From positions 1-64,000 of the forward strand of contig JAEMGR010000043.1 of NCBI GenBank assembly GCA_016458225.1: a stretch of 64,000 bases of DNA. Direction: 5' to 3'. This DNA comes from Myxococcaceae bacterium JPH2. Its GTDB lineage: Bacteria > Myxococcota > Myxococcia > Myxococcales > Myxococcaceae. The notes beneath the pieces are model-generated. The model saw only the letters and a list, made by a program, of their open reading frames with translations, was not told the origin of the DNA and searched no databases. The translations under genes were made by a program, and so were the position numbers. The stretch's first letter is position 1. Each line of letters starts with the position of its first letter. Shown piece after piece: positions 15,618 through 40,435 of the stretch.

Positions 15618-15667
15618 GGGCCGTTAACCTAGCGTGCTCCTGGCACCCATCCCAAGGCCCGCGGCGC

Positions 15668-18188: not shown

Positions 18189-19532
18189 ATGACTCCAGTG
18201 GATTTGCCCCCAGCCGGCCCTCCTGCCTCGGGCGAGGCACGACCGTCCGGCGCCTCGCTCCTCGACCGCTTCCTTTCGCTGCCCACCCTCTCCCTGCTCG
18301 ACGCGCAGGGTCGGGACACGGGGGACGTGCGCGAGCGCGCCGCGCGCCTCGCCCGAGCGCTCCGGGACGCGGGAGTTCCCCCCGGTGGCCGCGTCGGCGT
18401 GGCCCTGCCCAACGGGCCTGAGTTCGTCATCGCGCTCGTGGCTTGCCTGGAGGCGCGCGCCACCTTCGTGCCCCTGAGCCTCGCCCTGTCGCCCGAGGTT
18501 CGCGACCGCCGGCTGGAGCGGATCCACGCGGCGGCCCTGGTGGACGCGGAGGGCGTGGTGCGCCGGGAGGCACCGCCGCCCGAGCCGGATGTCCCCGTGC
18601 CCGCGGTCATCCTCTTCACCAGCGGCAGCGAAGGAGACGGGCGCCCCGTGGCCCTGCCGGAGTCCGCGCTCCTGCACGTCGTCGACACGCACCACCCCGC
18701 GCTCGCGTATGAGCCGGGCACGCGCGTCACGGGCTACCTGCCGTGGAGCCACGCCTTCGGCTTCACCCTCGAACTGCTGATGGGGCTGCTGCACGGCGCC
18801 CGGGTGCGTTCGGTTCCACCGCCCTCGTTCCCCGAGGTGCTCGCCTCGGAGCCGCCGGGCTTCCTGTTTACCGTGCCGCGCATGCTGGAGCGGCTCGACA
18901 CGTCCACGCTGCGCGCGCTGCGCGGAGGAATCGTGGGCGGCGCTCCCGTGCGCGGTGCGCTGCGCGAGCACCTGCGGGGCAGCCAGCTGCGCGTGGGCTA
19001 CGGACAGACGGAGTGCGCCCCGGGCGCCTCACTGGGCGAGGCCGGCGAGTGGAACCACGACGACTTCCTCGGCCGCGCGCTGGGCTGTGAGCTGGAGCTG
19101 CACCCCGCGGGCGACGGCGAGCACCAGGAGCTGCGCGTGCGCGGCGCCAACCTCGGCCTTGGCTACGTGGACGGCGCGCGCATCCAGCCCTTCCCGCTGG
19201 ACGCGGGCTGGCGCGCGACCGGAGACCTGGCGAGCGCCGTGGACGGCGGCTTCGTCTCCGAGGGCCGGCGCGACGAGTTGTTCAAGCTCGACAACGGGCG
19301 GATGGTGAACCCCGTGCCATTGGAGCTGCCCTTCGACGGCCGCATCCTGCTCGTGGGCATGGGGCGCAACCTCATCCAGCCGCTCGCCCGAGGCGAGGTC
19401 CCCTCGGGCTTCGCGCTCCCCATCCCCCACCTCCCCCCCCGGCTGATGCCCGAGTCGTTCTGGAGCGCGTGCACGACGCCCACCGGCAAGGTCTCCCGGC
19501 GGCGCGCCCAACGTCTCTTCGAGGAATCATGA
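18189..19532 (+). CDS. AMP-dependent aryl-acid ligase of the pigment cluster
   Basis: ANL-superfamily adenylating enzyme (447 residues) expected to activate the aromatic starter acid and load it on the ACP. Motifs are the P-loop-like [56 protein letters not shown] and the C-terminal [12 protein letters not shown], whose lysine is the A10 catalytic residue. The P-loop is unusual in having Arg-Pro rather than Pro-Lys. An ATG at 18171 is also possible. The stop overlaps the ammonia lyase start by ATGA, so the enzymes that make and activate the starter are co-translated. Confidence 0.88.
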
Positions 19533-21025
19533 CTGCCCGCCCTCCCCTTCACTCGCTCACCTTCGACCGCAGCCGCCGGCTGACTCCGGCGGACCTCGTG
19601 GCCGCGGCCGAGCCCGTCCAGCTCACCCTCTCCGAGGAGACGCGCGCGCGGGTCTCGCGCTGCGAGGGCTTCGTGCGCGAGCAGAACGCCGCGGGCACAC
19701 CCATCTACGGGATGACCACGGGCTTCGGCCCGCTCGTGGCCTTCGGCGCGGCCCCCAGTCCCGTGGAGCAGGGCTATGGCCTGCTCAACCACCTGCGCTC
19801 AGGCCAGGGAGACTACCTGTCCCCGGGCGTGGCGCGCGCCATGTTGTTGGCCCGCGTGTGGTCGCTCGCACAGGGACACTCGGGCGTGAGCCTGCCCGTC
19901 ATCGACGACCTGTGCGCCGCGCTCGCCACGCCCTTCGCGCCGGCGGTGCCGGAGTGGGGCTCGGTGGGCGCCAGCGGAGACCTCACGCCCCTGGCCCATG
20001 CGGCGGGCGCGCTGCGCGGCGAGGGCGAGGCCTTCTGGGGCGAGGAGCGCGTGCAGGCCTCCGTTGCATTGGAGCGCGCGGGGCTGCGGCGGCTCGTGCT
20101 CCAGGGCCGGGACGCATTGGGATTGGTGAACGGCACGTCGTTGACGGCGGCCGCGGCGGGGCTCGCGGTGCACTCCGCGCGGCGGGCCGTGACGCTCGCG
20201 TTGAACCTCACGGGCCTCTTGGCGGAGTCGCTCGGCGCCGCGGACACGTTCACCTCGCCGGAGCTGCTGGAGGCATCGGGCCACCGCTCGGCGCATGACG
20301 TGGCGGTGCGGCTGCGCGAGCGGCTGCGGGGCGCCACGGTGAAGGACGGCCGCCCGCTTCAAGAGGCGTACAGCCTGCGGTGCGTGCCGCAGCTCGTGGG
20401 CGCGGTGGAGGAGTCGCTGCGCCACGTGGAGCACGTCGTCGAGTCCGACCTCAACGGCGTGAGCGACAACCCGCTCTTCTTCCCGGAGCAGGGCAAGGTC
20501 ATCCACGGCGGCAACTTCTTCGGGCAGCAGGTGGCCTTCGCCGCGGACGCGCTGAACCTCGCGCTCACGCAGCTGGCCAACCTGGCGGAGCGCCAGTTGG
20601 ACATGCTGTTGGATCCAGGGCGCAACGGCGGCCTGCCGCTGCTGCTGTCCGCGCGGCCCGGGGCGCAGTCGGGACTCGCGGGCGTCAACCTCGCGGCCAC
20701 GGCGATCGTCGCGGCGATGCGTCGCTACGCCACGCCCGCGAGCATCCAGACGTTGCCCACCAACGGCCACAACCAGGACGTGGTGCCCTTCGGAACGCAG
20801 GCCGCCATGGAGGCCCTGCGCCAGAGCGAGCGGCTGCAGCTCGTGCAGGCATCACTCGCGCTCGGGCTGCGGCAGGCGGCCTATCTCGGCGCGCGGCCTC
20901 CTTCGTCCCCGGCGGGCGCCGCGCTGCTCGCGCTCCTGTGCGAGACCGTGACGCCGGTGGATCCGGACCGTCCGCTCTCCGAGGACGTGCGCCGCATGGC
21001 CTCGGCAATCTATCTGCGCGGCTGA
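19529..21025 (+). CDS. MIO-type aromatic amino acid ammonia lyase, predicted tyrosine ammonia lyase
   Basis: Eliminates ammonia from an aromatic amino acid; here probably L-tyrosine to 4-coumarate, the starter of the polyene. The 498-residue length is normal. A148-S149-G150 in GSVGASGDLTPLAH form the MIO cofactor; the catalytic Tyr is Y60 in PIYGMTTGFGPL. The substrate-selecting position, His89 in Rhodobacter TAL, aligns with H88 in LLNHLRSG, which favours tyrosine over phenylalanine or histidine. LVNGTSLTAAAAG and SDNPLFFPEQGKVIHGGNF are conserved family segments. It is coupled to the upstream ligase and ends at a tandem hairpin region. Confidence 0.9.
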   Translation: MTARPPLHSLTFDRSRRLTPADLVAAAEPVQLTLSEETRARVSRCEGFVREQNAAGTPIYGMTTGFGPLVAFGAAPSPVEQGYGLLNHLRSGQGDYLSPGVARAMLLARVWSLAQGHSGVSLPVIDDLCAALATPFAPAVPEWGSVGASGDLTPLAHAAGALRGEGEAFWGEERVQASVALERAGLRRLVLQGRDALGLVNGTSLTAAAAGLAVHSARRAVTLALNLTGLLAESLGAADTFTSPELLEASGHRSAHDVAVRLRERLRGATVKDGRPLQEAYSLRCVPQLVGAVEESLRHVEHVVESDLNGVSDNPLFFPEQGKVIHGGNFFGQQVAFAADALNLALTQLANLAERQLDMLLDPGRNGGLPLLLSARPGAQSGLAGVNLAATAIVAAMRRYATPASIQTLPTNGHNQDVVPFGTQAAMEALRQSERLQLVQASLALGLRQAAYLGARPPSSPAGAALLALLCETVTPVDPDRPLSEDVRRMASAIYLRG

Positions 21026-21051
21026 ACGCAGCCCTTCGGCGGAGGACGCGC

Positions 21052-21073
21052 GCCCCGGGCAAGTCTCCGGGGC
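21052..21073. terminator. Hairpin 1 of the tandem pair
   Basis: GCCCCGG pairs perfectly with CCGGGGC (7 bp, 8-base loop). Placed after the ammonia lyase stop in a convergent gap, it can act on transcripts from either side. There is no U-run, which is usual at this GC content. Confidence 0.6.
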
Positions 21074-21103
21074 TGACTGCTCAGCCCTTCGACGGAAGAC
21101 GCA

Positions 21104-21126
21104 AGCCCCGGTGAGCCTCCGGGGCT
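21104..21126. terminator. Hairpin 2 of the tandem pair
   Basis: AGCCCCGG pairs perfectly with CCGGGGCT (8 bp, 7-base loop), the second repeat's version of the same structure, 52 bases from the first. Two in a row make a probable bidirectional terminator for the ammonia lyase and the convergent glycosyltransferase-acyltransferase. Confidence 0.65.
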
Positions 21127-21132
21127 GACTGC

Positions 21133-23142
21133 TCAGCCCTTCGGTGGAGGACGCGCGGCTGGAGTGAGCTGCGCGGGCGGCGCCGCGTCCCAGAAGTCGT
21201 AGAAGTTGAACCACTGGTAGGGGTACTCGCGCGCGACGGACTCCAGCTCGCGCACGTAGTCCTCGACCCACGCGCGGAGCTGCGCATCGCGGTCGACGCC
21301 TCGCACGAAGGCCAGCGTTCGTGGGGGCCGCGCGAAGAATCGATACGTGGCCGGCGCCACCTGCAGCGAGAACGTGGTGATGATCGGCGCGCCACTCACC
21401 GCCGCGAGCATGAAGGGCCCCACGGGAAAGGGCGCCTCGCGCCCCAGGAACGGCACTCGCACGAAGTGGCGATCCGTGGCTCGGTCTCCCTGCACCGCCA
21501 GCAGGGTGCCCTCGCGCAGCGCGCGCACCATCTCCAGCGAGCCGAGGAACTCATCCCCCACGGCGATGACCCGTGGGCCCTTGCCGTGCGCCTTCTCCAA
21601 GAAGCGGGACAGCCGCTCCTGCTCGCCCCGGAACGCCACGATGGCCAGCTTGCCGCTGGTGCTCCCCTGCCCCAGGAGCCCCGCCGCGACGTCCCAGTTG
21701 CCCAGGTGCGCGGTGAGCAACACGGCGCCCTTGCCCGACGTGGCGGCGGTGCGGATGTGCTCGATGCCTTCCTCTTCGTACCGGAAGACGCCACGGCCCC
21801 GCGTGGACAGGAGCGCGCGGTCCACCAACGTGCGCGCGAAGGAGAGGATGTGCTGGTACGCCCGCCGCCACTTCGCCACCCCGCGCGCGGGCCCCACCGC
21901 TCGGTCGAGGAACGCCGCCGAGGACTGGCGGGCCGCGCGAGACGTCAGCAGGAAGTAGAACGCCACCGGGTACAGCGCCGCGTACGCCGCGCCGATGCCG
22001 AACACGCGCGTCACCTGGAAGAAGAACCAGTGCCCCAGCACGCCGCCCCGGCTGCGCCCCGTCCACCGCCGAGGCCCCTCCACGCGCCTGCGCGCCCCAC
22101 TCTCCCACGCACCCCACGCCAGCCCCACGCCCGCGACGACGCCCGCCGCGCCGAGCGGAGGCAGCCCGCGCCCCAGCAACGCGGAGACCGCTGACCCGGC
22201 CGCCAGCGCCGGCACCGCGCCCAACCCCGCGACGGCGCACGCGAGCGCCGCCAGCGCCCAACCCCATCCACTCACCGCGCCAAGCGCCAGCGCGATGCCC
22301 ACCGCCGCGGAGAGCGCGCGCCACACGAGCCCCTCGCCCCCGAGCCACGCCCAACGCCGCAGCGCGAACAGCGACAAGCCGGGCCGATGCGGCAGCGGCC
22401 CCAAGCGCGGCGCCAGGGGCAAAGGGAGGAAGAGACGAATGCAGGTGAGCGTGTTGAGCAGCGAGATGCGCGCGTTGTCGACGAAGGGCCGGAAGTGGCT
22501 GATGCGGTCCTTCGGGTAGATGACACCGATAGGCACCGAGCGCAGCGGCACGCCGGCCCACGCGGCGCGCAGGAGGATCTCCACCTCGAAGTCGTAGCGT
22601 GTGTTGCGCGTGGGCAGGCGCGCGCAGGCGGCGAGCGGATAGGCGCGAAAACCAGACTGGCTGTCTTCCACGCGCGCGCCGCTCTCGAACCAGACCCAGA
22701 AGTTGGAGAACTTGCGACCGAACTCACTGGAGGCCGGGGCACCCGCGGCGATGAGGTCCCGCGCGCCGATGATCAACGCGCCCGGCTCCGCCGTGACGGC
22801 CGCCGCCAAGGTGGGCAGGTCCGAAGGGAGGTGCTGCCCGTCCGCATCCAGCGCGATGGCGGAGCGAAAGCCCCGGCGGTGCGCTTCGTCGAGCAGGCGG
22901 CGCAGCGCCACGCCCTTGCCCCGGTTCTGGGGCTGCCGGAGCACAGTGGCACCCGCGCGCTCCGCCTCGTCGCCCGAGCCATCCGTCGAGCCGTCGTCGC
23001 ACACCAGCACGGTGGAGGCATGCTCCAGCGAGCCCCGGACGACCGCGCCCACCGTCCGCGCGTGGTTGTAGACGGGGATGACGACGCAGGCGCCGGCCTG
23101 GTCGCAGCTACGGGTGGGGCGGTCGGTCACACGTCGCCTCAT
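21133..23142 (-). CDS. GT2 glycosyltransferase-LpxL acyltransferase fusion
   Basis: A 669-residue two-enzyme protein. Residues about 18-240 are a family 2 glycosyltransferase (VVIPVYNHARTVG, CDDGSTDGS, the DxD-type ALDADGQHLPSD at 99-101, and DSQSGFRAYPL). Residues about 255-345 are hydrophobic membrane segments. Residues about 365-650 match LpxL/HtrB lauroyl transferases, with the catalytic H479-x4-D484 pair in HLGNWD. This fusion is characteristic of aryl-polyene and flexirubin clusters, where it is thought to attach the polyene to a lipid or sugar anchor in the envelope. It is divergent from the methyltransferase gene. Confidence 0.92.
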   Translation of the reverse strand: MRRRVTDRPTRSCDQAGACVVIPVYNHARTVGAVVRGSLEHASTVLVCDDGSTDGSGDEAERAGATVLRQPQNRGKGVALRRLLDEAHRRGFRSAIALDADGQHLPSDLPTLAAAVTAEPGALIIGARDLIAAGAPASSEFGRKFSNFWVWFESGARVEDSQSGFRAYPLAACARLPTRNTRYDFEVEILLRAAWAGVPLRSVPIGVIYPKDRISHFRPFVDNARISLLNTLTCIRLFLPLPLAPRLGPLPHRPGLSLFALRRWAWLGGEGLVWRALSAAVGIALALGAVSGWGWALAALACAVAGLGAVPALAAGSAVSALLGRGLPPLGAAGVVAGVGLAWGAWESGARRRVEGPRRWTGRSRGGVLGHWFFFQVTRVFGIGAAYAALYPVAFYFLLTSRAARQSSAAFLDRAVGPARGVAKWRRAYQHILSFARTLVDRALLSTRGRGVFRYEEEGIEHIRTAATSGKGAVLLTAHLGNWDVAAGLLGQGSTSGKLAIVAFRGEQERLSRFLEKAHGKGPRVIAVGDEFLGSLEMVRALREGTLLAVQGDRATDRHFVRVPFLGREAPFPVGPFMLAAVSGAPIITTFSLQVAPATYRFFARPPRTLAFVRGVDRDAQLRAWVEDYVRELESVAREYPYQWFNFYDFWDAAPPAQLTPAARPPPKG

Positions 23143-23201
23143 GCCCCGTGGGCCCCGCGCCCGTCAACACTCAGGCGGACGGGCCGGCCCCCCGGGCAGC
23201 C

Positions 23202-24446
23202 ATGCCCCAGCCCCTGACGTGGACCTTGCCTTTCCCGCCGCCGAGCAACGACGCTGCGCCCCCCATGCAGACCCCTGGCCCCACCGACCCACCCCCGCCC
23301 CCCATCCCGGCCGCTCCGGGCCTGCGCGAGCGGCTCCGGGCGGTCCCCCGGCAGTTGCTCGCGCGCATCCACGCGCTGAAGGACGAGCACGCCAGCCCCG
23401 GGCGCCTGGGCCTCGCCGTCGCGGTGGGCGTCCTCATCGGGGCGAGTCCCTTCCTCGGGCTTCAGCTCGTGCTGGCCGTGGCCCTGGCGACCCTCTTTGG
23501 ACTCAATCGCTTCGCCGTGCTGCTGGGCTCGCAGGTGTCGGTGCCTCCGCTCACGCCGCTGGTCCTCTTCGCCAACGCACAGGTGGGCGCCTTCCTCCTC
23601 ACGGGACGCTGGCTGCCCCTCTCCCTTCAGGCACTGCGCGAGGTGCCGGCCAAGCAACTGGTCGCGGAGCTGTTCGCGGACCTGCTGGTGGGTGGGCTCG
23701 TCGTGGGCGGCGCGCTCGCGCTCATCCTCGGGGGCGCGACCGCGCACTTCGTGAGCCTCGTGCGTGCGCCAGATGAGCTGGCGCCCCACCTCTCGACGCC
23801 GCGATGGAAGGAACTCCAGCGACGACTGGGCGCGCTGCCCCGCGCGTGGCGTTCCTATGCACGATGGAAGCTGCGGTTGGATCCGGTCTACGGGCTGGTG
23901 CTGACCGAGCTTCCCGAGGACGTGGACCTCGTGGACCTGGGCTCCGGCATGGGCCTTCTCCCGCTGCTGCTCGCGCTGCGCTCACCGCGAGCCCGGGTGC
24001 GCGCGCTGGAGTGGGACGCCCGCAAGGCCCGTGTCGCGCGAGAGCTGCTCGCGGACCTCCCGGGCATGCAAGTGGTGGAGGGCGATGCCCGAGCCGGCGC
24101 GCTGGGTCAGCCGCAGGCCATCACGCTGGTGGACGTGCTGCACTACAGCCCCGTGGAGGAGCAGCGGCAGTGGTTGGAGCGGTGCGCGCATGCGCTCGCG
24201 CCGGGAGGGCTGCTGCTCATCCGCGAGTTGGAGCCCGCGCGCTCGCGCAGGACGTGGGCCACTCGGCTGGAGAAGCTCGCGGTGCGCTGGGGATGGAACC
24301 AGGGCGCGACAGTCCAAGCCTGGGCCCCCTCCGAGATGGCCCATGCCTTGACAGCCTTGGGCTTCACCGCCGTAATCCATCCAGCGGGCTCGGGCGCGTT
24401 TCGCGCGAACTCCTTGGTGGTCGCACGCAAGCCCTCCGCATCCTGA
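23202..24446 (+). CDS. DUF2062-SAM methyltransferase fusion
   Basis: A 414-residue protein. After a Pro-rich N terminus, residues about 40-195 form a DUF2062 membrane domain (GLAVAVGVLIGASPFLGLQ; GSQVSVPPLTPLVLFA). Residues about 215-410 are a class I SAM methyltransferase with motif I VDLVDLGSGMGLLPLL, an acidic residue in VRALEWDARKARV and the post-I VDVLHYSP. It probably O-methylates the aryl head or another polyene position at the membrane. The ATG at 23202 is preferred to the GTG at 23148, which nearly abuts the divergent gene. The halogenase starts 4 bases after its stop. Confidence 0.85.
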   Translation: MPQPLTWTLPFPPPSNDAAPPMQTPGPTDPPPPPIPAAPGLRERLRAVPRQLLARIHALKDEHASPGRLGLAVAVGVLIGASPFLGLQLVLAVALATLFGLNRFAVLLGSQVSVPPLTPLVLFANAQVGAFLLTGRWLPLSLQALREVPAKQLVAELFADLLVGGLVVGGALALILGGATAHFVSLVRAPDELAPHLSTPRWKELQRRLGALPRAWRSYARWKLRLDPVYGLVLTELPEDVDLVDLGSGMGLLPLLLALRSPRARVRALEWDARKARVARELLADLPGMQVVEGDARAGALGQPQAITLVDVLHYSPVEEQRQWLERCAHALAPGGLLLIRELEPARSRRTWATRLEKLAVRWGWNQGATVQAWAPSEMAHALTALGFTAVIHPAGSGAFRANSLVVARKPSAS

Positions 24447-24450
24447 TTCC

Positions 24451-25665
24451 ATGAATACAGACGTTCTGGTGATTGGCGCCGGGCCCGCGGGCAGTGTCGC
24501 GGGTTCCCTGCTGGCTCAAAAAGGCCACCGCGTGACTTGCCTGGAGGCCGGGACGTTTCCCCGCTTCCAGATTGGCGAGTCGCTCCTGCCCCGCTGCAAT
24601 GACATCCTCGAGGAGGCCGGCCTGCTGAAGGCCGTGGTGGCGCGGGGCTATCAGCCCAAGAACGCCGCCCTGTTCCTCCAGGGAGATGCCCGCGAGCGCT
24701 TCTGCTTCGCGGAGGTCTTCCCCGGCCAGCGCACGCAGACCTTCCAGGTGCCGCGCTTCGACTTCGACCAGACGCTCGCCACGGCGGCGCGCGGTCATGG
24801 CGTGGACCTGCGCTTCAACCAGCGCGTGGACGCGGTCGAGTTCCAACCCAACGGTGGCGCGGTCATCCGCGCCACGGACCTGGAGAGCAACGCGACCGAG
24901 CAGCTCCAAGCGCGCTTCGTCATCGACTGCAGCGGCTACGGCCGCGTGCTGCCCAAGCTGCTGAAGTTGGAGAAGCCGTCGTCGCTGGCGCCGCGCATCG
25001 CGCTCTTCACGTGGATCGAGGGAGACCGCCGTCCCGAGGGCGCCGAGGAGGGCGACATCTGGGTGTGCCTGCATCCGCGGGGCGCGTGGATCTGGATCAT
25101 CCCGTTCTCCAACGGCCGCACCTCGGTGGGCGTGGTGATGGAGCGCTCGCTGTACGACAGCGTGTCGGGCTGCGACCGCGACCGATTGATGAGCCTGCTG
25201 CGAGAGGACCCCAACGCGCGCGCGCGCCTGGCGAACGCGGTGCCGGTGTTGAAGACGATGAAGCTGGAGGCGTGGTCGGCGGCGGTGGAGTCGCTGCACG
25301 GACCGGGCTGGGCCCTCACCGGCAACGCGGCGGAGTTCCTCGACCCCGTGTTCTCCTCGGGCGTCACGGTGGCGCTGGAGTCCGCCAGCCGGGCCGCGGC
25401 GCTCGTGCACCGCACGCTCCAGGGCGAGACGGTGAATTGGAACACCGAGTACGGCGCCGTCGTGGAGAAGGCCGTGAGCGTCTTCCGCGTCTTCGTGCGC
25501 ACCTGGTACACCGGCGAGCTGCCGCGAGTCCTGCTGCGCCCGAACAAGACGCAGGCCATCAAGCGCGCCATCACCGCCATCCTCGGCGGCTACGTGCTGG
25601 ATGAGGAGAACCCGTTCGTGCGCAACCCCGAGGGCACCCTCTCCGCCCTCCTGAAGTTGGCGTGA
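24451..25665 (+). CDS. Flavin-dependent halogenase-like enzyme
   Basis: A 404-residue FAD enzyme with dinucleotide motif GAGPAGSVAG at residues 9-18. Both signatures that separate halogenases from monooxygenases are present: WxWxIP as W213-I-W215-I-I-P218, and Fx.Px.Sx.G as F296-L-D-P299-V-F-S302-S-G304. K70 in GYQPKNAALF aligns with the catalytic lysine that binds HOX as chloramine in phenolic halogenases. It should halogenate the phenolic ring while substrate is free or ACP-bound, using FADH2, oxygen and halide. It follows the methyltransferase by 4 bases and ends at a strong hairpin. No flavin reductase gene lies nearby. A monooxygenase role remains possible. Confidence 0.85.
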   Translation: MNTDVLVIGAGPAGSVAGSLLAQKGHRVTCLEAGTFPRFQIGESLLPRCNDILEEAGLLKAVVARGYQPKNAALFLQGDARERFCFAEVFPGQRTQTFQVPRFDFDQTLATAARGHGVDLRFNQRVDAVEFQPNGGAVIRATDLESNATEQLQARFVIDCSGYGRVLPKLLKLEKPSSLAPRIALFTWIEGDRRPEGAEEGDIWVCLHPRGAWIWIIPFSNGRTSVGVVMERSLYDSVSGCDRDRLMSLLREDPNARARLANAVPVLKTMKLEAWSAAVESLHGPGWALTGNAAEFLDPVFSSGVTVALESASRAAALVHRTLQGETVNWNTEYGAVVEKAVSVFRVFVRTWYTGELPRVLLRPNKTQAIKRAITAILGGYVLDEENPFVRNPEGTLSALLKLA

Positions 25666-25679
25666 CGGTGCACGCAGGT

Positions 25680-25711
25680 GGCCGGCGAGGACGCCCTGTC
25701 CTCAGCCGGCC
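25680..25711. terminator. Strong bidirectional hairpin
   Basis: GGCCGGC-GAGGAC pairs with GTCCTC-A-GCCGGCC: a 13-bp stem with one bulged A and a 5-base loop. It begins 15 bases after the halogenase stop and overlaps the last codons of the convergent deacetylase gene, so it probably ends transcription from both directions. Confidence 0.7.
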
Positions 25712-26430
25712 AGCAGCTCGCGCAAAGTGACGGTGCCGAGCCCGCGCGCGCGCAGCTCCGTGAGCAGCAACGGGAGGTTCTCCACCGTCTGCTCTCGCAA
25801 CTCGGAGCGCTCGTGTGGGCTGCCATCGTGGAGCGTGAGGATGTGCCCCGCGCTCGTTCTCGCCGCGAGCGCGCGTGCTCGGCGCGCCGTGAAGGCCCAT
25901 GCGCCATCCCGAGCCGCATGCGTCCACGTCACCACCGTCAGCCCGGCCTGACGCGCGGCCTGGTGCACCGCGGGGTTCCGAACGCCCACGGCGGGCCGGT
26001 AGTACCGCGGGCGCTCACCCGTGACGGTGAAGAGGGACTCCTGGCAGCGCCGCAGGTCCTCTTCCAGGCGTGATGCGACGAAGAGGTCCGCGCCGGTCCC
26101 ATGCCGCCACGTGTGATTGGCGAGCTGATGTCCCGCGCCGTGCAGTGCCCGCGCGAGCCCGGAATGCCGCTCCACCTCGCGACCGATGCAGAAGAACGTG
26201 GCCTGCGCGCCATGCCGGTGGAGGATGTCCGCGATGCGCTCCGTGTAGTGCGGATGGGGGCCATCATCGAACGTGAGCGCCACCACGGGACGAGTCGAGG
26301 GGCCGCGCCAGATGCCCGGTCCGAAGAGCATCACGCGCGGATGGAAAACCCCTGCCGCCATGCCGGCCAGCACCCCTCCGCCCGCGACGAGCGCAGTGGC
26401 CACTCCGAGCAGCGGCTCACCCAGCGACAC
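25702..26430 (-). CDS. NodB-type polysaccharide deacetylase within the pigment operon
   Basis: A 242-residue membrane-anchored deacetylase. An N-terminal hydrophobic helix (GVATALVAGGGVLAGMAAGV) is followed by a NodB domain with metal and catalytic motifs LTFDDGPHPHYT, HQLANHTWRHG, a PAVGVRNPAV segment in place of the usual RPPYG, and HILTLHDGSPHE. The GTG start at 26430 overlaps the end of the ketosynthase-like gene by 14 bases, so it is co-translated with the pigment genes. It may deacetylate an N-acetylated sugar on the pigment anchor. It is the last gene of the leftward operon. Confidence 0.88.
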   Translation of the reverse strand: MSLGEPLLGVATALVAGGGVLAGMAAGVFHPRVMLFGPGIWRGPSTRPVVALTFDDGPHPHYTERIADILHRHGAQATFFCIGREVERHSGLARALHGAGHQLANHTWRHGTGADLFVASRLEEDLRRCQESLFTVTGERPRYYRPAVGVRNPAVHQAARQAGLTVVTWTHAARDGAWAFTARRARALAARTSAGHILTLHDGSPHERSELREQTVENLPLLLTELRARGLGTVTLRELLAG

Positions 26431-28566: not shown

Positions 28567-28570
28567 GGTG

Positions 28571-28843: not shown

Positions 28844-28885
28844 CGGCTCTTTCTCTGGAAGGGGCGCGGCGACGGGCGCGCGCGA

Positions 28886-29626: not shown

Positions 29627-29686
29627 GAGTCTGGTGGGAGAGGCGAGGGTTGAGACGGAATCCTTACCACCCCGCTTCGAGGTTTG

Positions 29687-31895: not shown

Positions 31896-31925
31896 GCGCG
31901 TGGGAGGTGTATCACCGCCTCGGCC

Positions 31926-32750: not shown

Positions 32751-33351
32751 GCCTGTCCTCATCCCGTTCCTCGCCGCCTGGATGCTCCAGGCAACGCCCG
32801 CCTCATCCGCGGAGCCCGCCCCGCGTGAACTGACAGCGCTGCGTGACTCGCTGGCCCGAACGCAGAAGCTCTCCGCTCGATTCAAGCAGACACGCCACTG
32901 GGCGGCGCTGCAGGACGCGCTCGTAACCCAGGGCACCATCCAATACCAGAAGGGCGGACGGTTGGTATGGCACACCGAAGCCCCCTCGAAGAGTGAGCTC
33001 ATCCTCGAAGGCAGCACGGCCACCCTGCGCTACCCCGCCCTGGGGACCACCCAAGCCATCGACTTCTCGGCCGAGCCCGCCATGGGCCGCGTCTTCGAGA
33101 GCATCAAGGCCGTGGTGGAGGCGGACCTGGAGCGCCTGCGGCCCCTGTTCGAGCTGGCAGTCGAGCGCAAGGCCCCCCTGAGCCTCGCCCTCAAGCCGCG
33201 CGCCTCGGAGCTGGCCAGCGTCGTGGAGCGCATCCACCTGGAGTTCGACGCCGACTTCCGCCTCACCCGCGTCGTCCTCGAAGAGCCCGGCGGCGACCAC
33301 ACGGAGATCGCCTTCTCCGCCCACGTCATCCAGCCGGTGGCCAAGCCGTGA
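32749..33351 (+). CDS. LolA-like periplasmic lipoprotein/lipid carrier
   Basis: A 200-residue exported protein: a signal peptide (VLIPFLAAWMLQATPASSA) then a LolA-fold sequence (LARTQKLSARFKQTRHW, GTIQYQKGGRLVWHTEAP, with an amphipathic strand series to the end). LolA-like proteins are regular members of aryl-polyene clusters and are thought to carry the lipid-like pigment across the periplasm to the outer membrane. The ATG at 32749 overlaps the divergent PlsC start; an in-frame ATG at 32734 would overlap it even more. The stop overlaps the next lipoprotein gene by GTGA. Confidence 0.85.
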   Translation: MPVLIPFLAAWMLQATPASSAEPAPRELTALRDSLARTQKLSARFKQTRHWAALQDALVTQGTIQYQKGGRLVWHTEAPSKSELILEGSTATLRYPALGTTQAIDFSAEPAMGRVFESIKAVVEADLERLRPLFELAVERKAPLSLALKPRASELASVVERIHLEFDADFRLTRVVLEEPGGDHTEIAFSAHVIQPVAKP

Positions 33352-34061
33352 AGCTCCGACTCGCGACCTGGGCCCTCGTGCTCACCACCTGGGTCGGCTG
33401 CGCGCACCCGGCCGCCGTCGTCCCTCCGCCCGAGAAGCTCCCGCCGCTCGAGTCCGTCGACGCGGCGAGCGCGGCGCTCACCGCCCTGCACGAGCACGAG
33501 CCCGCGACCTTCAAGATGGTCCACCAGGTGGTGGCGCGCCACGACGGCAAGTCCTACGTGATGACGGGCTACCTGCTCGGCCGCGAGGACGGCGCCTTCC
33601 GCGTGTCCGCCGCCGCGGACATGGGCCCGCGCCTCTTCGACGTGGCCTGGGTGGGCGGACAGTGGGAGGCGAAGGTGCACCTGCGCCAGCTCGCCGAGCG
33701 CCTCGACCCGCGCCACATGGGCCGGGCCGTGCAGCGCATCTACTTCACCACCGCGTCCGGCCCGCTGTCGCTGGAGGAGGGCCAGTGGGTGTCTCGCGCC
33801 AACGTCCAGGGCGACGACGACATCGACGCGGTGGAGGTCTTCCGCGACGGCCACACGCTGGCGCTCACCCACAAGCGCTTCTTCCTCCGAGGCGCCCCGG
33901 TGCTCGACATCGACTACACCCAGCTCGAGGCCGTGGCGGGCCACTGGCTTGCCCGCCACGTGAAGCTGAAAGACCAGCGGGGCTTCGAGCTGGAGCTGAA
34001 CGTCACCCACTACGAGCCCGGCTTCGCGGTGCCCGAGGAGCGGCTGCACGTCCAACCGTGA
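33348..34061 (+). CDS. Outer-membrane lipoprotein, DUF3261-like
   Basis: A 237-residue lipoprotein with a short signal and lipobox (LTTWVGC). It follows the LolA-like gene with a GTGA overlap, the position taken by DUF3261 lipoproteins in aryl-polyene clusters, and has a matching beta-rich composition (YVMTGYLLGREDGAFRVSAA, FDVAWVGGQWEAKV). It could receive the pigment at the outer membrane from the LolA-like carrier. The DUF3261 assignment rests on context and general pattern, not on a diagnostic motif. Confidence 0.7.
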   Translation: MKLRLATWALVLTTWVGCAHPAAVVPPPEKLPPLESVDAASAALTALHEHEPATFKMVHQVVARHDGKSYVMTGYLLGREDGAFRVSAAADMGPRLFDVAWVGGQWEAKVHLRQLAERLDPRHMGRAVQRIYFTTASGPLSLEEGQWVSRANVQGDDDIDAVEVFRDGHTLALTHKRFFLRGAPVLDIDYTQLEAVAGHWLARHVKLKDQRGFELELNVTHYEPGFAVPEERLHVQP

Positions 34062-34073
34062 GCCGCTCCCCAG

Positions 34074-34090: not shown

Positions 34091-34094
34091 AGGC

Positions 34095-34706
34095 TCAGGG
34101 CTTCGCGGGCGGCGCGCACTTGCCGCAGAGCGCGTCGTTGAACTCCTTGCTGGCGAACAGCTCGGCGGCGGCCCGGTCCATCGACCAGCTGATGGTCTCC
34201 TGGTAGTTCTCCGGGCTGCCCGCGCGGCCGTAGTTGTTCGCGCTGCCGGTAATCTGCCCCGTCCAGCACGGCGCCGAGGCGCCGGCCGGCACGTAGGACA
34301 CGTCCATCGTGGCGCGGCCCCGGTACACCGCGTTGCGAGACACCTGCTCCTCGATGTTGAACTGCGTGACGCGCAGGGCGAGGCTGCCCGGGTTGGCCGT
34401 GGGCTTCACCTGCCGCACGCGCTTGAACGCGCTCTCGAAGGCGCCGCGCACGTAGGCCGTGACGTCCCCCTGGAGCTGGATGGGGTACTTCTGGTCGGGC
34501 TTCTCCTCCTGGAAGCGCTGGCCCACGGAGGACGTATCCGTGCGCACATCCGCGACGGACACGACGAGCGACGGGGCACACTCGCGCAGGGCGGGCGGCA
34601 CCTCGTCCGAGGGGCTGTAGTTGGCGGGGAAGGCGGTGGCGCCCTCGCGCGGACCCGTGCAGGCGGCGAGGGACAAGGCGCTCAGGACAATCAAACGGCG
34701 GGACAT
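34095..34706 (-). CDS. Lipoprotein of unknown function in the pigment cluster
   Basis: A 203-residue lipoprotein (lipobox ALSLAAC) with a single compact domain. A conserved-looking strand pattern (LVVSVADVRTDTSSVG, ALRVTQFNIEEQ) and a C-terminal pair in CGKCAPP occur. I do not recognise a family. It lies 52 bases downstream of an active KS on the same strand and may be the last gene of the second leftward operon. An envelope role linked to pigment placement would fit but is not shown. Confidence 0.65.
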   Translation of the reverse strand: MSRRLIVLSALSLAACTGPREGATAFPANYSPSDEVPPALRECAPSLVVSVADVRTDTSSVGQRFQEEKPDQKYPIQLQGDVTAYVRGAFESAFKRVRQVKPTANPGSLALRVTQFNIEEQVSRNAVYRGRATMDVSYVPAGASAPCWTGQITGSANNYGRAGSPENYQETISWSMDRAAAELFASKEFNDALCGKCAPPAKP

Positions 34707-34758
34707 CAGGACCTCCGCAGTCGAGTCAGGACGCGACCCGGACCCACGAATGCCCCGC

Positions 34759-35985
34759 TCAGCCTGGCAGACCGAGGAGCAACGACGTGTTCACTCCCCC
34801 GAAAGCGAAGTTGTTCGAGAGCACCGTGCGCACCGGACGCGACTCCTGCTCTAGCACATGCCGCAGGCCCTGGCAGGCGGGATCCACTTCCTCCAGGTTG
34901 AGCGTGGGCGCGATGAAGCCCTCGCGCATCATCAGCACGCTGAAGATGGCCTCGATGGCGCCGCACGCCGCCAGGGTGTGCCCGGTGAAGCCCTTGGTGG
35001 ACGACACGGGAACGGAGCCCCCCATCACGTCCAGCGTGGCCTGCGCCTCGACCGCGTCCCCCAGCAGCGTGCCCGTGGCGTGCGCGTTGACGTAGTCCAC
35101 GTCGCTGGCGCGCAGCCCCGCGGACTCCAGGCACGTGGCCATGGTGCGCGCCATGCCCTCGCGCGCGGGCGCGGACATGTGCTCCGCGTCGCACAGCGTG
35201 GAGTAGCCCAGCACCTCTGCGTGGATGGTGGCATGGCGCCGCAGCGCCGCCTCGCGCTCCTCCAGCACGAGCACCGCGCCGCCCTCGCCCACCACCAACC
35301 CGTCGCGCCGCCGCTCGAACGGCCGGGGCGTGCACGTGGGGCTCTCGTTGAACGCGCGCGAGGTGCCTCCGAGGATGTCGAAGGTGGCCGCGGTGCTCAC
35401 GTGCAGCTCCTCCGCGCCACCGCACAGCATCAGGTCCTGGTAGCCGTCGCGGATGGCCTCGAAGCCCTGGCCTATGGCTTGACTGCTGGACGCGCACGCC
35501 GCGGACGGCGCGAACACCCGGCCCGTCACCTTGAACATGAGCGCGAGGTTGGCCGCGGCCGAGTGGCTCATGAGCTGGAGGAAGGTGGTGGACTTGAGGC
35601 TGCGCACGCCCTCGCTGCGCAGCACGTTGAAGAACAGCTCGGTGGCCGCGGGGCTGCCCACCGTCTGCCCGATGGAGAGCCCCGCCCGTCCGGTGCGCAG
35701 CATCTCCCGGTCCACGCGCGCGTGCGCCAGCGCCTGCTCGGCGGCGCTCGCGGCCAGCATCGCCACGCGGCCCATGGAGCGGCGCGACTCGCGCGGAATG
35801 GCCTTCTCGTCCAAGCCCTCCACGGTGGCGCCCACGCGCGTGTGCAGGTCCTTCCACTCGGCCCAGGCGGGCATGGCGCGCACGCCCGAGCGCCCGGAGC
35901 GCAGTGCCGCAAGCACCGCCTCCAGCCCGTTGCCAATGGGGCTCAACAGGCCCATGCCGGTGATGACGACGCGGCGCCGAGTCAT
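34759..35985 (-). CDS. Beta-ketoacyl synthase (FabF-like, ApeR-like)
   Basis: A 408-residue ketosynthase. The N-terminal VVITGMGLLSPIGNG opens the fold; active Cys in PSAACASSSQAIG, first His in VNAHATGTLLGD and second His in KGFTGHTLAACG. The NAHATGT form and full length match the KS that starts or extends the chain in aryl-polyene clusters (ApeR-like). The start overlaps the stop of the FAD oxidoreductase by ATGA; the longer open frame is read-through of that gene. Confidence 0.9.
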   Translation of the reverse strand: MTRRRVVITGMGLLSPIGNGLEAVLAALRSGRSGVRAMPAWAEWKDLHTRVGATVEGLDEKAIPRESRRSMGRVAMLAASAAEQALAHARVDREMLRTGRAGLSIGQTVGSPAATELFFNVLRSEGVRSLKSTTFLQLMSHSAAANLALMFKVTGRVFAPSAACASSSQAIGQGFEAIRDGYQDLMLCGGAEELHVSTAATFDILGGTSRAFNESPTCTPRPFERRRDGLVVGEGGAVLVLEEREAALRRHATIHAEVLGYSTLCDAEHMSAPAREGMARTMATCLESAGLRASDVDYVNAHATGTLLGDAVEAQATLDVMGGSVPVSSTKGFTGHTLAACGAIEAIFSVLMMREGFIAPTLNLEEVDPACQGLRHVLEQESRPVRTVLSNNFAFGGVNTSLLLGLPG

Positions 35986-37523
35986 GCGCGAGCAACCTTC
36001 TGGAAGAGGGAATCGAAGCCCAGCACGAACCCGCAGGTGACGAAGGCGCTGACGGTGGCTCCGACGACGCCCGGCAACAGCACGTTCTGTCCGGTGAGCA
36101 GCAGGTTGGGGATGCGCGTGCGGGCCTGGAGCGAGTACTTGCCCCACTGGTCCAACGCGTGACTGACGCCGTAGATGGAGCCGCGCGGCGCGGCGGTGTA
36201 GTCGCGGTGGGTGAGCGGCGTGGACACCTCCACGCGCTTGAGCTTCCCCGCCAGGTCCGGCAGCGCGCGCTCGACGGTGGCCTGGAGCGCCTGGCCCTGG
36301 GCATCCTTGAACGCGGCATACTCCTCGCCGCGCTTGCCGGTGCGCGAGTCGGCGAAGCGCTCCACTTCCTCGTACCCCAGGAGCCCCAGGGCCAGCACCA
36401 CGCGCGGGCCCTTCTGCTCGGGCTCGCGGTCGCTCGGGAAGCTGACGAAGATGGCCTTCTCTCCGTCCTTCTCCTGACCGAACACCGCGTCGCGGTAGAC
36501 CGCGTCCACGTCCTCCGTGGGCATGCTGTAGATGTTGTGGAGCCGGGGCACGGAGCGGTCCTCCGTGGTGAAGAAGCCCCCGATGCACGAGATGCCCTCG
36601 CGCATGCTCTCCACGCGGTGCACATAGGCGGGCCGCAGCACGCCCTCCGGCAGCAGGCCCAGCGTCAGCTTGGGGTGCGCGTTGGAGATGAAGAAGCGGC
36701 CTCGCACAAGTTCGCCCTTCTCCAGCCGGGCCCCCGTCACCTTCGTGCCGTCCATCTCCAGCGCCTTCACGCCGGAGCGGATGCGCACCACGCCGCCATG
36801 CGCGCGGATGGTGTCCACCAGCGCCTTGGCGAGCGCGTCACCGCCGCCCCGGATGCCCGAGGCGCCCTGGAGCATGGAGTCGATGACGAGCGCGTGGACC
36901 TCCAGCGGCGTCACCTCGGGCGGCGTGCCGTACAGCATGCTCTGGCCGCACAGCACCGCCAGCAGTCGCCGGTTGGACGTGAGCCCGCGCAGGAACGACC
37001 CGAGCGACACCTGGCTGTAGTCCCCCAGGTCCATCGTGGGCGCCTGGAATGAGTACGCCGGGCTGCTGCGGCAGATCTCCTGGCAGACCTCGGCGTAGCG
37101 ATGAATCGCCGCGCGCTCGGAGGGAAACGCGTCCACCAGCCGCTCCACCAAGCGGGGCCAGCCGTTGGGCACGCGGAAGGAGTACTCGGGGAAGCGCAGC
37201 TCGTCGAAGCCGTCGGGGTCGAGCGGCTGATAGCTCATGCGCTCGTACACGCCCAGGTAGCGCAGGTAGCGCGCGAGCGTGCCATCCGGCCCCACGCCGC
37301 CCAGGTAATGGAAGCCCGTCTCGAAGGGCACGCCCTTGCGGAAGAAGCGGTGCAGGCAGCCCCCGGGCCGGTAGTGCTGCTCCAGCACGCAGACCTTGAA
37401 GCCCTCCTTGGCCAGCACCAGCGCCGAGCACAGGCCCGCCATCCCAGAGCCGACGATGACCACGTCGAAGGCATCCGGCTCCAGGCCCGTGGCCGGAAGG
37501 AACCGCTCGGCGGAACTCACCAT
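35982..37523 (-). CDS. CrtI/RetSat-like FAD oxidoreductase
   Basis: A 513-residue flavoprotein of the phytoene-desaturase/all-trans-retinol saturase superfamily. The dinucleotide motif is VVIVGSGMAGLCSALVLA; VLEQHYRPGGCLHRF and the C-terminal LLLTGQNVLLPGVVGATVSAF close the FAD site. Acting on polyene-like substrates is typical of this family, so a saturation, desaturation or isomerisation step on the polyene or its lipid partner is likely. It lies between the dehydratase (22 bases) and the KS (ATGA overlap), so it is a true cluster gene. Confidence 0.88.
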   Translation of the reverse strand: MVSSAERFLPATGLEPDAFDVVIVGSGMAGLCSALVLAKEGFKVCVLEQHYRPGGCLHRFFRKGVPFETGFHYLGGVGPDGTLARYLRYLGVYERMSYQPLDPDGFDELRFPEYSFRVPNGWPRLVERLVDAFPSERAAIHRYAEVCQEICRSSPAYSFQAPTMDLGDYSQVSLGSFLRGLTSNRRLLAVLCGQSMLYGTPPEVTPLEVHALVIDSMLQGASGIRGGGDALAKALVDTIRAHGGVVRIRSGVKALEMDGTKVTGARLEKGELVRGRFFISNAHPKLTLGLLPEGVLRPAYVHRVESMREGISCIGGFFTTEDRSVPRLHNIYSMPTEDVDAVYRDAVFGQEKDGEKAIFVSFPSDREPEQKGPRVVLALGLLGYEEVERFADSRTGKRGEEYAAFKDAQGQALQATVERALPDLAGKLKRVEVSTPLTHRDYTAAPRGSIYGVSHALDQWGKYSLQARTRIPNLLLTGQNVLLPGVVGATVSAFVTCGFVLGFDSLFQKVARA

Positions 37524-37545
37524 GTGTAGACCTCGTGCGCGCCCC

Positions 37546-38007
37546 TCACCGGAGCACGCCCCCGGGCTGGCCCGCGTAGCCGCTCAGACTCGCATCCGCG
37601 ATGCGCCGCGTGCCCACGCGCACCTTGCCGTGGCCGGTGAGCATGCCGAAGCGCTCCTCGCCCACTTCGACTTCGTAGGTGACCTCCTGGCCCGGCTCGA
37701 CCACGGAGCGAAAGCGCGCCCGGTCGATGCCCACCAGGAAGACCCGCGGCGCGGCCCGCTGCGTGAGCGCGAAGTACGCCATGGTCTGCGCGAGCCCCTC
37801 CACCAGGAGGACGCCGGGCACCACGGGCTGCTCCGGGAAGTGGCCGGCGAAGTAGTGCTCGTCCGCGCGGAACAGGCGCACCGCGACGATGCGCCGCTCG
37901 GCCATCTCGATGACCCGGTCCACCAGGAGGAAGGGCTCCCGGTGGGGCAGCACGGACTGGACAGGGGGATACACGCCAGGGGAGGGAGGAGGAGCCTGCT
38001 CGGACAC
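37546..38007 (-). CDS. FabZ-like hotdog 3-hydroxyacyl-ACP dehydratase
   Basis: A 153-residue hotdog protein. It contains LPHREPFLLVDRV, the catalytic His in YFAGHFPEQPVVPG and the catalytic Glu in LLVEGLAQTMA, both in FabZ positions. It removes water from 3-hydroxyacyl-ACP to form the double bonds. Aryl-polyene clusters commonly have two dehydratases (ApeI and ApeP); only this one is recognisable here, so it may serve every cycle or use a partner encoded elsewhere. It sits 4 bases after the KS gene. Confidence 0.92.
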   Translation of the reverse strand: MSEQAPPPSPGVYPPVQSVLPHREPFLLVDRVIEMAERRIVAVRLFRADEHYFAGHFPEQPVVPGVLLVEGLAQTMAYFALTQRAAPRVFLVGIDRARFRSVVEPGQEVTYEVEVGEERFGMLTGHGKVRVGTRRIADASLSGYAGQPGGVLR

Positions 38008-38011
38008 CGTG

Positions 38012-39232
38012 TCAGTCCACCGCCCGGAGGACCACCGACGCGTTGGTCCCTCCGAAGCCGAAAGAGTTCTTCAGGATGGTGCGCGGGCGCACCGCGAGCG
38101 TGGACACCGGCAGGTTCAGCACCGCCGAGGCCTCGTCCGGCGCCTCCAGGTGCGGGTTCCCCGCGATGAAGCCCTCGCGCATCATCAACAGGCAGTACGC
38201 CACCTCGCTGGCCCCCGCCATCCAGCACTCGTGGCCCGTGAGCCCCTTGGTGGACGACACCGGCACGCGCGCGCTGCCGAAGACGCGCGCGATGGCGCCC
38301 GCCTCCACCGCGTCCCCCACCGGCGTGGAGGTCGCGTGCGCGTGGATGTAGTCCACCTCGGCCGGGTGCACGTGCGCGCGCTGGAGGGCCTGCGTCATGG
38401 TCCGCGTGGCGCCCCCGCCGCTGGGGTTGGTGAGGTGCTCGCCGTCGCACCCGAACGCGTAGCTGGACACCTCGGCGTAGATGCGCGCCCCGCGCTCGCG
38501 CGCCGAGTCCAGCGACTCCACCACCAGCGCCGCGCCGCCGCCCGAGGGCACCAGGCCATCGCGCTTCGAGTCGAACGGCCGCGACGCGCGCGCCGGATCC
38601 GAGTCATTGGCGGACAGCGCGCCCAGCGCGTCGAACGCGGCCATGCCCTGCCACGACGTCTCCTGCGCGCCGCCGCACAGCACCACCCGCTGCTGCTCGG
38701 TGGCGATCAGCATGGCGGCCTGTCCCAGCGCGTGCAGCCCGCTGGCGCACGCGGCGGACAGCGACCAGCAGGCCCCCTGCAAGCCCAGGAGCGTGGCCAG
38801 GTTCATGGTGACCGTGGAGTTCATCACCCGGATGATGTGCCCGCTGCCCAGCGCGCCGGTGCGACCCGCGGCGGACAGCTCGGTGAACATCACCTCGGCG
38901 GCCTGGCAGGTGGAGTCGTTGCCGAAGATGGCGCCCACGTCCGGCGACGCGAGCGAGGCGCGATCCAACCCCGCGTCCTCGATGGCATCCAGCGCCGCGG
39001 CACAGCCATACGCGGCGGCCTCGCCCATCGTCCGGCGCGCCTTTCGATCGAACCGGCGAGCGGGGTCGAACCCGCGCACGACTCCGGTGAGACTCGAGCG
39101 GAACCCCCGCGCCTTGCGCTCCGGGTCGATGCCGATGCCCGAGCGACCTTCCCGCAAGGACTGGGTGACCTCGGGCAAGTTCGTCCCGATGGCGGAAATG
39201 ACCCCGAGTCCGGTGATGACCACACGCTTCAT
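38012..39232 (-). CDS. Beta-ketoacyl synthase (FabB-like)
   Basis: A 406-residue ketosynthase starting MKRVVITGLGVISAIG. Active Cys is in LSAACASGLHALG, first His in IHAHATSTPVGD and second His in GLTGHECWMAGA; the GFGGTN end is intact. The GHECW spelling and ACASG loop resemble FabB-type rather than FabF-type enzymes. It lies between FabG-like SDR 2 (35 bases) and the dehydratase (4 bases), giving a compact reduction-dehydration-extension set. Confidence 0.9.
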   Translation of the reverse strand: MKRVVITGLGVISAIGTNLPEVTQSLREGRSGIGIDPERKARGFRSSLTGVVRGFDPARRFDRKARRTMGEAAAYGCAAALDAIEDAGLDRASLASPDVGAIFGNDSTCQAAEVMFTELSAAGRTGALGSGHIIRVMNSTVTMNLATLLGLQGACWSLSAACASGLHALGQAAMLIATEQQRVVLCGGAQETSWQGMAAFDALGALSANDSDPARASRPFDSKRDGLVPSGGGAALVVESLDSARERGARIYAEVSSYAFGCDGEHLTNPSGGGATRTMTQALQRAHVHPAEVDYIHAHATSTPVGDAVEAGAIARVFGSARVPVSSTKGLTGHECWMAGASEVAYCLLMMREGFIAGNPHLEAPDEASAVLNLPVSTLAVRPRTILKNSFGFGGTNASVVLRAVD

Positions 39233-39267
39233 GAACGCAAAGCCCCCTCGCACAGCCCCGCGAGCTG

Positions 39268-39996
39268 CTACTCCATCCACATCCCGCCGTTGACGCTCAG
39301 CACCTGCCCCGTGACGTACGCGGCCTCGTCCGAGCACAGGTAGCGCACGACATGGGCCACCTCCGCGGGGCGCCCCACGCGGCCCACCGGGACGAGCGAG
39401 AGCAGCTCCTTCACGGGCGCGCCCTCCAGCATCTCGGTGTCGATGAGGCCCGGCGACACGACGTTGACCGTGATGCCCCGGGGCGCCAGCTCCAGCGACA
39501 GCGAGCGCGCCGCCGCCACCATCGCGCCCTTGGTGGCCGCGTACGCGACCTGCCCGGGGTTGCCGCGCTGGGCGGCCACCGACGACATCAGCACGATGCG
39601 CCCGCGGCGCTGACGCACCATGGACTTCACCACCGGCCGCGCCACCGCGAAGAAACCGCCCAGGTTGGTGCCAATGACCTCGTCCCAGCTCGCGTCATCC
39701 GTGAGGGCGAACAGTCCGTTGCGGGTGATGCCGGCGTTGAGCACCACCGCGTCCAGCGGACCCTGCTCATCCAGGAGCCGCCGCATGGCGTCCTGGGTCT
39801 GGGCGCGATCCGCGACGTCGAAGGAGACCCGCAGCGGCTCCGGTCCCCCCGCGCTCACGATGCGACGGGCCACCTCCAGGGCGGCGTCCTCGCGGCTGCG
39901 GTAGTGCAACCAGACCCGATATCCCGCGGCCCCGAGGGCCTCCGCCGTCGCGGCCCCAATACCCCTGCTCGCTCCTGTGATGAGGGCCTGCTTCAC
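39268..39996 (-). CDS. 3-oxoacyl-ACP reductase (FabG-like SDR 2)
   Basis: A 242-residue SDR. Cofactor loop TGASRGIGAATAEAL, NAG in VLNAGITRNG, catalytic Ser in VLMSSVAAQ, Tyr/Lys in QVAYAATKGAM, and a C-terminal AAYVTGQVLSVNGGMWME. The GTG at 39996 (VKQALITG) is preferred because the family starts at this strand; a longer frame to 40044 adds an unlikely N terminus. It is the first gene of the second leftward operon and diverges from ACP 2 across 172 bases. Confidence 0.9.
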   Translation of the reverse strand: MKQALITGASRGIGAATAEALGAAGYRVWLHYRSREDAALEVARRIVSAGGPEPLRVSFDVADRAQTQDAMRRLLDEQGPLDAVVLNAGITRNGLFALTDDASWDEVIGTNLGGFFAVARPVVKSMVRQRRGRIVLMSSVAAQRGNPGQVAYAATKGAMVAAARSLSLELAPRGITVNVVSPGLIDTEMLEGAPVKELLSLVPVGRVGRPAEVAHVVRYLCSDEAAYVTGQVLSVNGGMWME

Positions 39997-40168
39997 TGGC
40001 GTGTCTCGGTCCGGGAACGTCCACCCGTGGACGCAGTGCCCCACTTAACATACCGGCGGACCGGCACCAACGAGGGAGGCGGACGGCCGCCTGCCCCCGC
40101 CCCGGTACAACTCCGGACGTCGCCAGGATTGACCCTGCTCGCCCAAGACTGCTACCGAGGCGCTCCCC

Positions 40169-40435
40169 ATGGGTGAACAGAACCTGGCCGAGAAGGCCAT
40201 CCAGATTGTCAACCAGACCCTCGTCTCCGAGTTCGAGCTCGACCCCGCCGCCGTCGTCCCCGAGGCGCGGATGCGCGAGGACCTCCACCTCGACAGCCTG
40301 GACGCGGTGGACCTCATCGTCGCGCTGGAGAAGGCCCTCGGCGTGCAGATTCCCGAGACCGAGGCGCGCGAGATGCGCACGGTGGGCGACGTGCACCAGT
40401 ACGTCCTGAAGATGGCGGCCGAGCGCGGGCAGTAG
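40169..40435 (+). CDS. Acyl carrier protein of the pigment cluster (ACP 2)
   Basis: An 88-residue ACP with the phosphopantetheine serine in LHLDSLDAVDLIVAL and FabG/ACP-like acidic helices. It is the only gene at this end transcribed rightwards, divergent from SDR 2. A GAGG eight bases upstream supports the ATG. It differs clearly from ACP 1 (DSLDAVDL against DSLSALEL), so the two may serve different steps such as starter loading and elongation. Confidence 0.93.
   Translation: MGEQNLAEKAIQIVNQTLVSEFELDPAAVVPEARMREDLHLDSLDAVDLIVALEKALGVQIPETEAREMRTVGDVHQYVLKMAAERGQ

Follow-up and report, generated by a model that had tools for sequence, protein, structure and literature searches.

The window analyzed here is the first 64 kb of a 101.7-kb contig (C43) of genome G000, a 9.0-Mb draft in 144 contigs with 99.6% completeness. 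Its source is a soil-dwelling Citreicoccus myxobacterium, congeneric with C. inhibens M34 (G001), the sole same-genus comparison genome. Domain scans with curated profiles on both strands revealed one coherent gene set at 18189-40435 (~22 kb), related to aryl-polyene (APE) and flexirubin pigment clusters, which is the subject of this report. All the genes that had been named in it by the original prediction, an earlier reading of the same DNA, were recovered by these profiles at the positions it gave. The polysaccharide deacetylase, LolA, and the DUF3261 protein were also cluster members, and two more catalytic ketosynthases, KS3 and KS4, were found beyond the two pairs of ketosynthase (KS) and chain-length factor (CLF). 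Catalytic motifs were intact in the translations inspected. The genes are as follows:

18189-19532, + strand: acyl-AMP ligase, ApeH/FlxY-like, for starter activation (PF00501; core motifs in the translation)
19529-21025, + strand: aromatic amino acid lyase, a predicted tyrosine ammonia-lyase (TAL) (PF00221, E 1e-128; closest solved relative 2o6y)
21133-23142, - strand: fusion of a GT2 glycosyltransferase and an LpxL acyltransferase, ApeJ-like (PF00535 and PF03279, Lip_A_acyltrans)
23148-24446, + strand: fusion of DUF2062 and an S-adenosylmethionine methyltransferase, with an ApeB-like role (PF09835 and methyltransferase families)
24451-25665, + strand: halogenase-like flavin adenine dinucleotide (FAD) enzyme (PF04820, Trp_halogenase; PF01494, FAD_binding_3)
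25702-26430, - strand: polysaccharide deacetylase (PF01522)
26417-27403, - strand: CLF1, chain-length-factor-like KS without the active-site Cys in its translation (PF13723)
27400-28566, - strand: KS1, ApeO-like ketosynthase (PF00109/PF02801; tree)
28571-28843, - strand: acyl carrier protein ACP1 (PF00550)
28886-29626, - strand: ketoreductase KR1, FabG-like (PF13561)
29687-30502, - strand: CLF2, chain-length-factor-like (partial PF00109 without the Cys; 50-56% identity in G021 and G013)
30717-31895, - strand: KS2, ketosynthase of a deep myxobacterial lineage (PF00109/PF02801; tree)
31926 to ~32750, - strand: PlsC-type acyltransferase, start uncertain, with several candidates (PF01553)
32734-33351, + strand: LolA-like periplasmic chaperone (PF03548; NF053544, LolA2_flexi, below cut-off)
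33348-34061, + strand: DUF3261 LolB-like lipoprotein, ApeN-like, abutting LolA (PF11659)
34095-34706, - strand: small lipoprotein with no Pfam match (homologue near DUF3261 in G010)
34759-35985, - strand: KS3, ApeR-type ketosynthase (tree)
35982-37523, - strand: CrtI/CrtISO-like FAD oxidoreductase, amine-oxidase-like (PF01593)
37546-38007, - strand: FabA/FabZ-like dehydratase (PF07977)
38012-39232, - strand: KS4, FlxC-type ketosynthase (tree; 48-52% identity to KSs of Bacteroidota loci)
39268-39996, - strand: KR2, ApeQ/FlxB-like ketoreductase (PF13561; 45-46% to proteobacterial APE reductases)
40169-40435, + strand: ACP2 (PF00550)
40446-41216, - strand: alpha/beta hydrolase, possible thioesterase, membership uncertain (PF12697/PF00975)

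The core expected of an APE cluster is present (AMP-ligase, ACPs, KS/CLF, KR, and dehydratase of the type II polyketide synthase kind), as is the envelope set (GT/LpxL, PlsC, LolA, and DUF3261, the last just under the Pfam cut-off), and the GT2-LpxL fusion is common to myxobacterial relatives. The entire stretch is syntenic in C. inhibens M34, with 86-99% protein identity, and chance open reading frames (ORFs) are excluded because this synteny spans its full length. Plus-strand ORFs at 14346-15632, 26624-27562, 28277-29653, 31168-32409, 34858-37399, and 39352-40176 match no families and were dropped as by-products of the 71% GC DNA, lying antisense to real minus-strand genes. The presence of DUF2378 genes nearby is consistent with a myxobacterial host.

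The ketosynthases make the cluster a mosaic that joins flexirubin-type (FlxC) and APE-type (ApeR) enzymes. In the ketosynthase tree, KS4 represents the hallmark FlxC-type ketosynthase of flexirubin clusters and groups with the Bacteroidota flexirubin KSs in the FlxC clade (100/100), and KS3 falls in the proteobacterial ApeR clade (99/97). KS1 lies near ApeO-type enzymes, and KS2 occupies a deep myxobacterial branch.

The predicted polyene would most likely be primed with tyrosine. The cluster lyase has the methylidene-imidazolone (MIO) triad ASG, HL in motif 1, and Q in motif 2, which are the residues of RsTAL, and the chorismate lyase UbiC is absent from genome G000, removing one source of 4-hydroxybenzoate; both observations support the tyrosine-type starter proposed earlier. 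AMP-ligase homologues occur in six relatives, and the lyase adjoins wherever neighboring sequence was read. A phenylalanine or histidine ammonia-lyase, giving a head group of cinnamate or another kind, would agree with the top profile scores of the protein, which are those of histidine ammonia-lyase models, all below cut-off. This reading is improbable, however, as HL with Q is the TAL/phenylalanine ammonia-lyase type, and the other intact lyase of the genome, which is HutH-like, has SH and E at these motifs, as in HutH. A third aromatic lyase gene, on contig C21 (35400-36498), consists of three adjoining pieces in different frames, which may reflect a pseudogene or faulty assembly.

Motif 1 reads SH in 71 of 73 aligned Bacteroidota FlxA homologues and FH in the APE lyases of Pseudoalteromonas and Acinetobacter. 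The myxobacterial lyases form a long branch of their own in the lyase tree, which suggests that the cluster lyase was recruited separately from the FlxA lineage; a position beside RsTAL is not safe because the branches are long. The cluster lyase scores 277 bits with the FlxA model NF053541, whose cut-off is 700. No fewer than three distinct lyase lineages (FlxA-type SH, proteobacterial FH, and myxobacterial HL) occur in such clusters. A pair of AMP-ligase and lyase genes, 64% and 76% identical to those of the window, also lies on contig C4 of G009 (L044:19036 to L045:1824), where its neighbor is an acyl-CoA dehydrogenase gene and the flanking ~19 kb in each direction contain no further polyene genes; this starter pair is perhaps used for something else.

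The genes for the dialkylresorcinol (DAR) half of flexirubins were searched for in the window genome and 30 relatives. The queries were the DarA/DarB pair of Flavobacterium locus L127, in which DarB passes NF053539 with 672 bits (cut-off 550) and has DarA as its conserved neighbor. Neither query had a match in G000 or G001, and the same searches were positive in the relative G006, with DarA and DarB side by side; this positive and the completeness of G000 indicate that the absence is real at the draft level. KASIII proteins of the genome were rejected as DarB, their similarity (≤23-26%) being at the FabH level. The original prediction had noted the lack of both genes in the window and had named the discovery of homologues controlled together with the cluster as the finding that would speak against it; the lack extends to the whole genome. 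In C. pinensis, darAB is unlinked to the flexirubin cluster (PMC3992019), and consequently the lack of darAB beside a cluster is not diagnostic in general. Strictly speaking, the present cluster falls outside the flexirubin clusters, since the DAR genes were searched for and not found. We read it, with a probability of roughly 0.8, as a predicted flexirubin-type aryl-polyene lipid cluster, primed with tyrosine, lacking the dialkylresorcinol half, and having mosaic ApeR/FlxC ketosynthases.

In G006, a member of the same family, the DarA/DarB homologues lie on contig C699 (23587-25613; L169:18588-19972 with L170:1-611) beside ACP, KS, and CLF genes, and a KS4-CrtI-KS3 block lies on a different contig. 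It is possible that G006 is a true flexirubin-type producer outside the Bacteroidota.

Both its profile matches and its solved relatives group the flavoenzyme with CmlS-type flavin-dependent halogenases. Its solved relatives are, in order, 3nix (E 7.5e-97), 8zop, CmlS, other flavin-dependent halogenases, and PltA. The signatures of these enzymes (GxGxxG, the catalytic Lys, and WxWxIP) are all present, in agreement with the halogenase-like enzyme of the original prediction, and Lys70 and WIWIIP (213-218) are kept in all 59 aligned sequences. Halogenation of the product is possible, and a polyene that is primed with tyrosine, and perhaps halogenated, is a plausible product. The chances are somewhat below even that the enzyme is instead an FAD monooxygenase or reductase acting on the head group or polyene of a pigment without halogen. 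The best solved relative, 3nix, is a flavoprotein/dehydrogenase of unproven function; the NCBIfam models for QhpG and geranylgeranyl reductases also match; and homologues are frequent in flexirubin-type loci (59 of 79 in the survey given below). The flexirubin studied in C. pinensis, whose flavoenzyme gene content lies outside this comparison, is methylated, with halogenation not reported (PMC3992019). On the contrary, the conserved Lys70 and WxWxIP and the named halogenases that rank after 3nix argue for a halogenase, chlorinated flexirubins are known (PMC3992019), and halogenase-bearing xanthomonadin clusters accompany brominated pigments (PMC3691225). Halogenase-like and MMPL genes also occur within ~11 kb in G038 (contig C23:62106-72796) and G041 (contig C14:130762-139324), which probably contain APE-type clusters in other families of the order.

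An exporter of the MMPL/RND type is usual in APE clusters but not strictly defining, as it can act in trans. The present cluster has no MMPL exporter, and LolA and DUF3261 abut (33348-33351) in both the window and C. inhibens. In G013, G021, and G007, LolA is followed by the MMPL exporter, with DUF3261 next in G013 and G021, and two contigs of G010 carry pieces of this order, LolA-MMPL on one and MMPL-DUF3261 on the other. A lone MMPL homologue is found in G000 on contig C10 (174392-176764), with a syntenic place in C. inhibens, and its homologues occur in the relatives with LolA-MMPL-DUF3261. None of its neighbors is an APE gene. The exporter may have been relocated out of the cluster to C10. 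The full combination of a halogenated, 4-coumarate-primed polyene lipid without dialkylresorcinol, an APE/flexirubin mosaic, a TAL independent of FlxA, and unlinked MMPL export is a tentative proposal, less likely than not.

The product would most likely be a membrane-bound yellow pigment derived from tyrosine. To judge from its motifs, the lyase would convert tyrosine into 4-coumarate, which the AMP-ligase would load on an ACP, and by homology the type II KS/CLF, KR, and dehydratase enzymes would carry out malonyl extension to an aryl polyene acid. The DUF2062-methyltransferase would methylate the ring, and the halogenase-like flavoenzyme may halogenate it. The GT2-LpxL fusion, PlsC, and the deacetylase would anchor the polyene to a lipid or an amino-sugar lipid. 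Its transfer to the outer membrane would be the task of LolA, DUF3261, and the MMPL exporter encoded elsewhere.

This scheme treats the stretch as one system. Alternatively, it could contain two independent neighbors, with an APE cluster at 18189-34061 and a KS/CrtI lipid module for another product at 34759-40435. In G006 (with ACP2) and in G003, the KS4-FabZ-CrtI-KS3 block is alone on short contigs, and in G021 and G007 no CrtI match accompanies the APE genes. However, the genomes of G006, G003, and G010 are in fragments and contain close halogenase-like genes (57-67%) as well, G010 additionally holds LolA, MMPL, DUF3261, and a PlsC piece, and the APE cluster of G021 ends with KR2. Furthermore, KS4, KR2, ACP2, and CrtI co-occur with the lyase and the flavoenzyme in flexirubin-type loci; one system is therefore favored, and two are unlikely.

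Several points weigh against the flexirubin-type, tyrosine-primed reading. The product is predicted from gene content, and the genome is a draft in 144 contigs. The NCBIfam flexirubin models FlxA, FlxB, and LolA2 matched below their cut-offs only. Rules based on lyase motifs are imperfect, as FlxA is a proven TAL despite its HAL-like motif 1 (SH) (PMC3992019). A XanB2-type chorismatase was not among the annotated cluster genes, the whole genome not having been searched for it. Lastly, the relocation of the exporter is something that we infer, and the C10 protein is just 44-55% identical to the cluster-borne copies.

Bacteroidota flexirubin loci (C. pinensis flx, F. johnsoniae, Chryseobacterium L085, Flavobacterium L127, and Persicobacter L067) share with the cluster, though not all in every locus, the lyase, the FlxC-type KS, KR, ACPs, KS/CLF, an LpxL-type acyltransferase, GT2, polysaccharide deacetylase, LolA, PlsC, DUF2062-methyltransferase, and the CrtI-like and halogenase-like enzymes (PMC3992019). 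In contrast to these loci, the window genome lacks DarA/DarB, the lyase has HL instead of SH and belongs to another lineage, there is an extra ApeR-type KS, GT2 and LpxL are fused, the exporter lies outside the cluster, and the C45 acyltransferase and hotdog thioesterase were not found in it. Proteobacterial APE clusters (L164, L165; E. coli ape, PMC8253772) share the ApeH-like ligase, two ACPs, ApeO/ApeR/ApeQ-type enzymes, GT2, acyltransferases, LolA, and DUF3261, and in L164 and L165 also the FAD enzyme and lyase. The window adds to these the FlxC-type KS4, CrtI, polysaccharide deacetylase, and a second KS/CLF pair, and differs in its lyase (HL against FH, another lineage) and unlinked exporter. 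Xanthomonadin and arcuflavin clusters share the halogenase gene, glycosyltransferase, acyltransferase, and LolA, and arcuflavin also the methyltransferase and polysaccharide deacetylase (PMC3949708). In both, hydroxybenzoate starters come from a XanB2-type chorismatase, whose place is taken by the lyase in the window, and arcuflavin has a DAR.

The original prediction held that this combination of genes sets the cluster apart, a claim that is not supported here. A single scan of named genomes for relatives of KS4 yielded 80 loci, nearly all from Bacteroidota; with the C. inhibens locus set apart, 79 remain, to which the counts refer. The lyase occurs in 71 of them, the halogenase-like enzyme in 59, always with the lyase, CrtI in 33, and all three together in 30; DarA was found in 27, within stretches of 20 kb. 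In further relatives (G005, G036, G042, and others), no cluster genes flank the CrtI homologues, which have 29-35% identity and were set aside as paralogues. The lyase, flavoenzyme, CrtI, DUF2062-methyltransferase, GT2, LpxL-type acyltransferase, polysaccharide deacetylase, and KS/CLF all recur in flexirubin-type loci. Persicobacter plasmid pPP6 (L067), for instance, has consecutive genes for the lyase, KR, KS4, LpxL-type acyltransferase, methyltransferase, KS, CLF, polysaccharide deacetylase, LolA, DUF2062, PlsC, and CrtI. Nor does the lack of DarA/DarB make the combination rare: the Pseudoalteromonas (L164) and Acinetobacter (L165) clusters, with lyase, flavoenzyme, LolA, exporter, and DUF3261, likewise have neither annotated. 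The same parts being found across flexirubin-type and some APE loci, the combination is ordinary content, and the cluster is a variant of known APE/flexirubin-type clusters, not a new kind of system. Thus, it takes more than a lack of darAB nearby, or the presence of a halogenase-like or CrtI-like gene, to make such a cluster unusual.

Some of the Myxococcota bins obtained from activated sludge contain APE clusters according to antiSMASH (PMC11821767), and aryl polyenes are therefore not new to the phylum. No paper on a flexirubin-type or lyase-primed cluster of myxobacteria was found in the open-access literature searched. These results extend flexirubin-type gene sets to cultivable Myxococcaceae and provide a candidate aryl-polyene pigment locus for C. 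inhibens, a lemon-colored species. Its fruiting bodies are lemon-yellow, and Table 1 of the species description, which also includes carotenoid and DKxanthene clusters, has no aryl-polyene cluster among the complete ones (PMC8538283). The cluster is nevertheless located on NODE_3 of C. inhibens M34 (L080).

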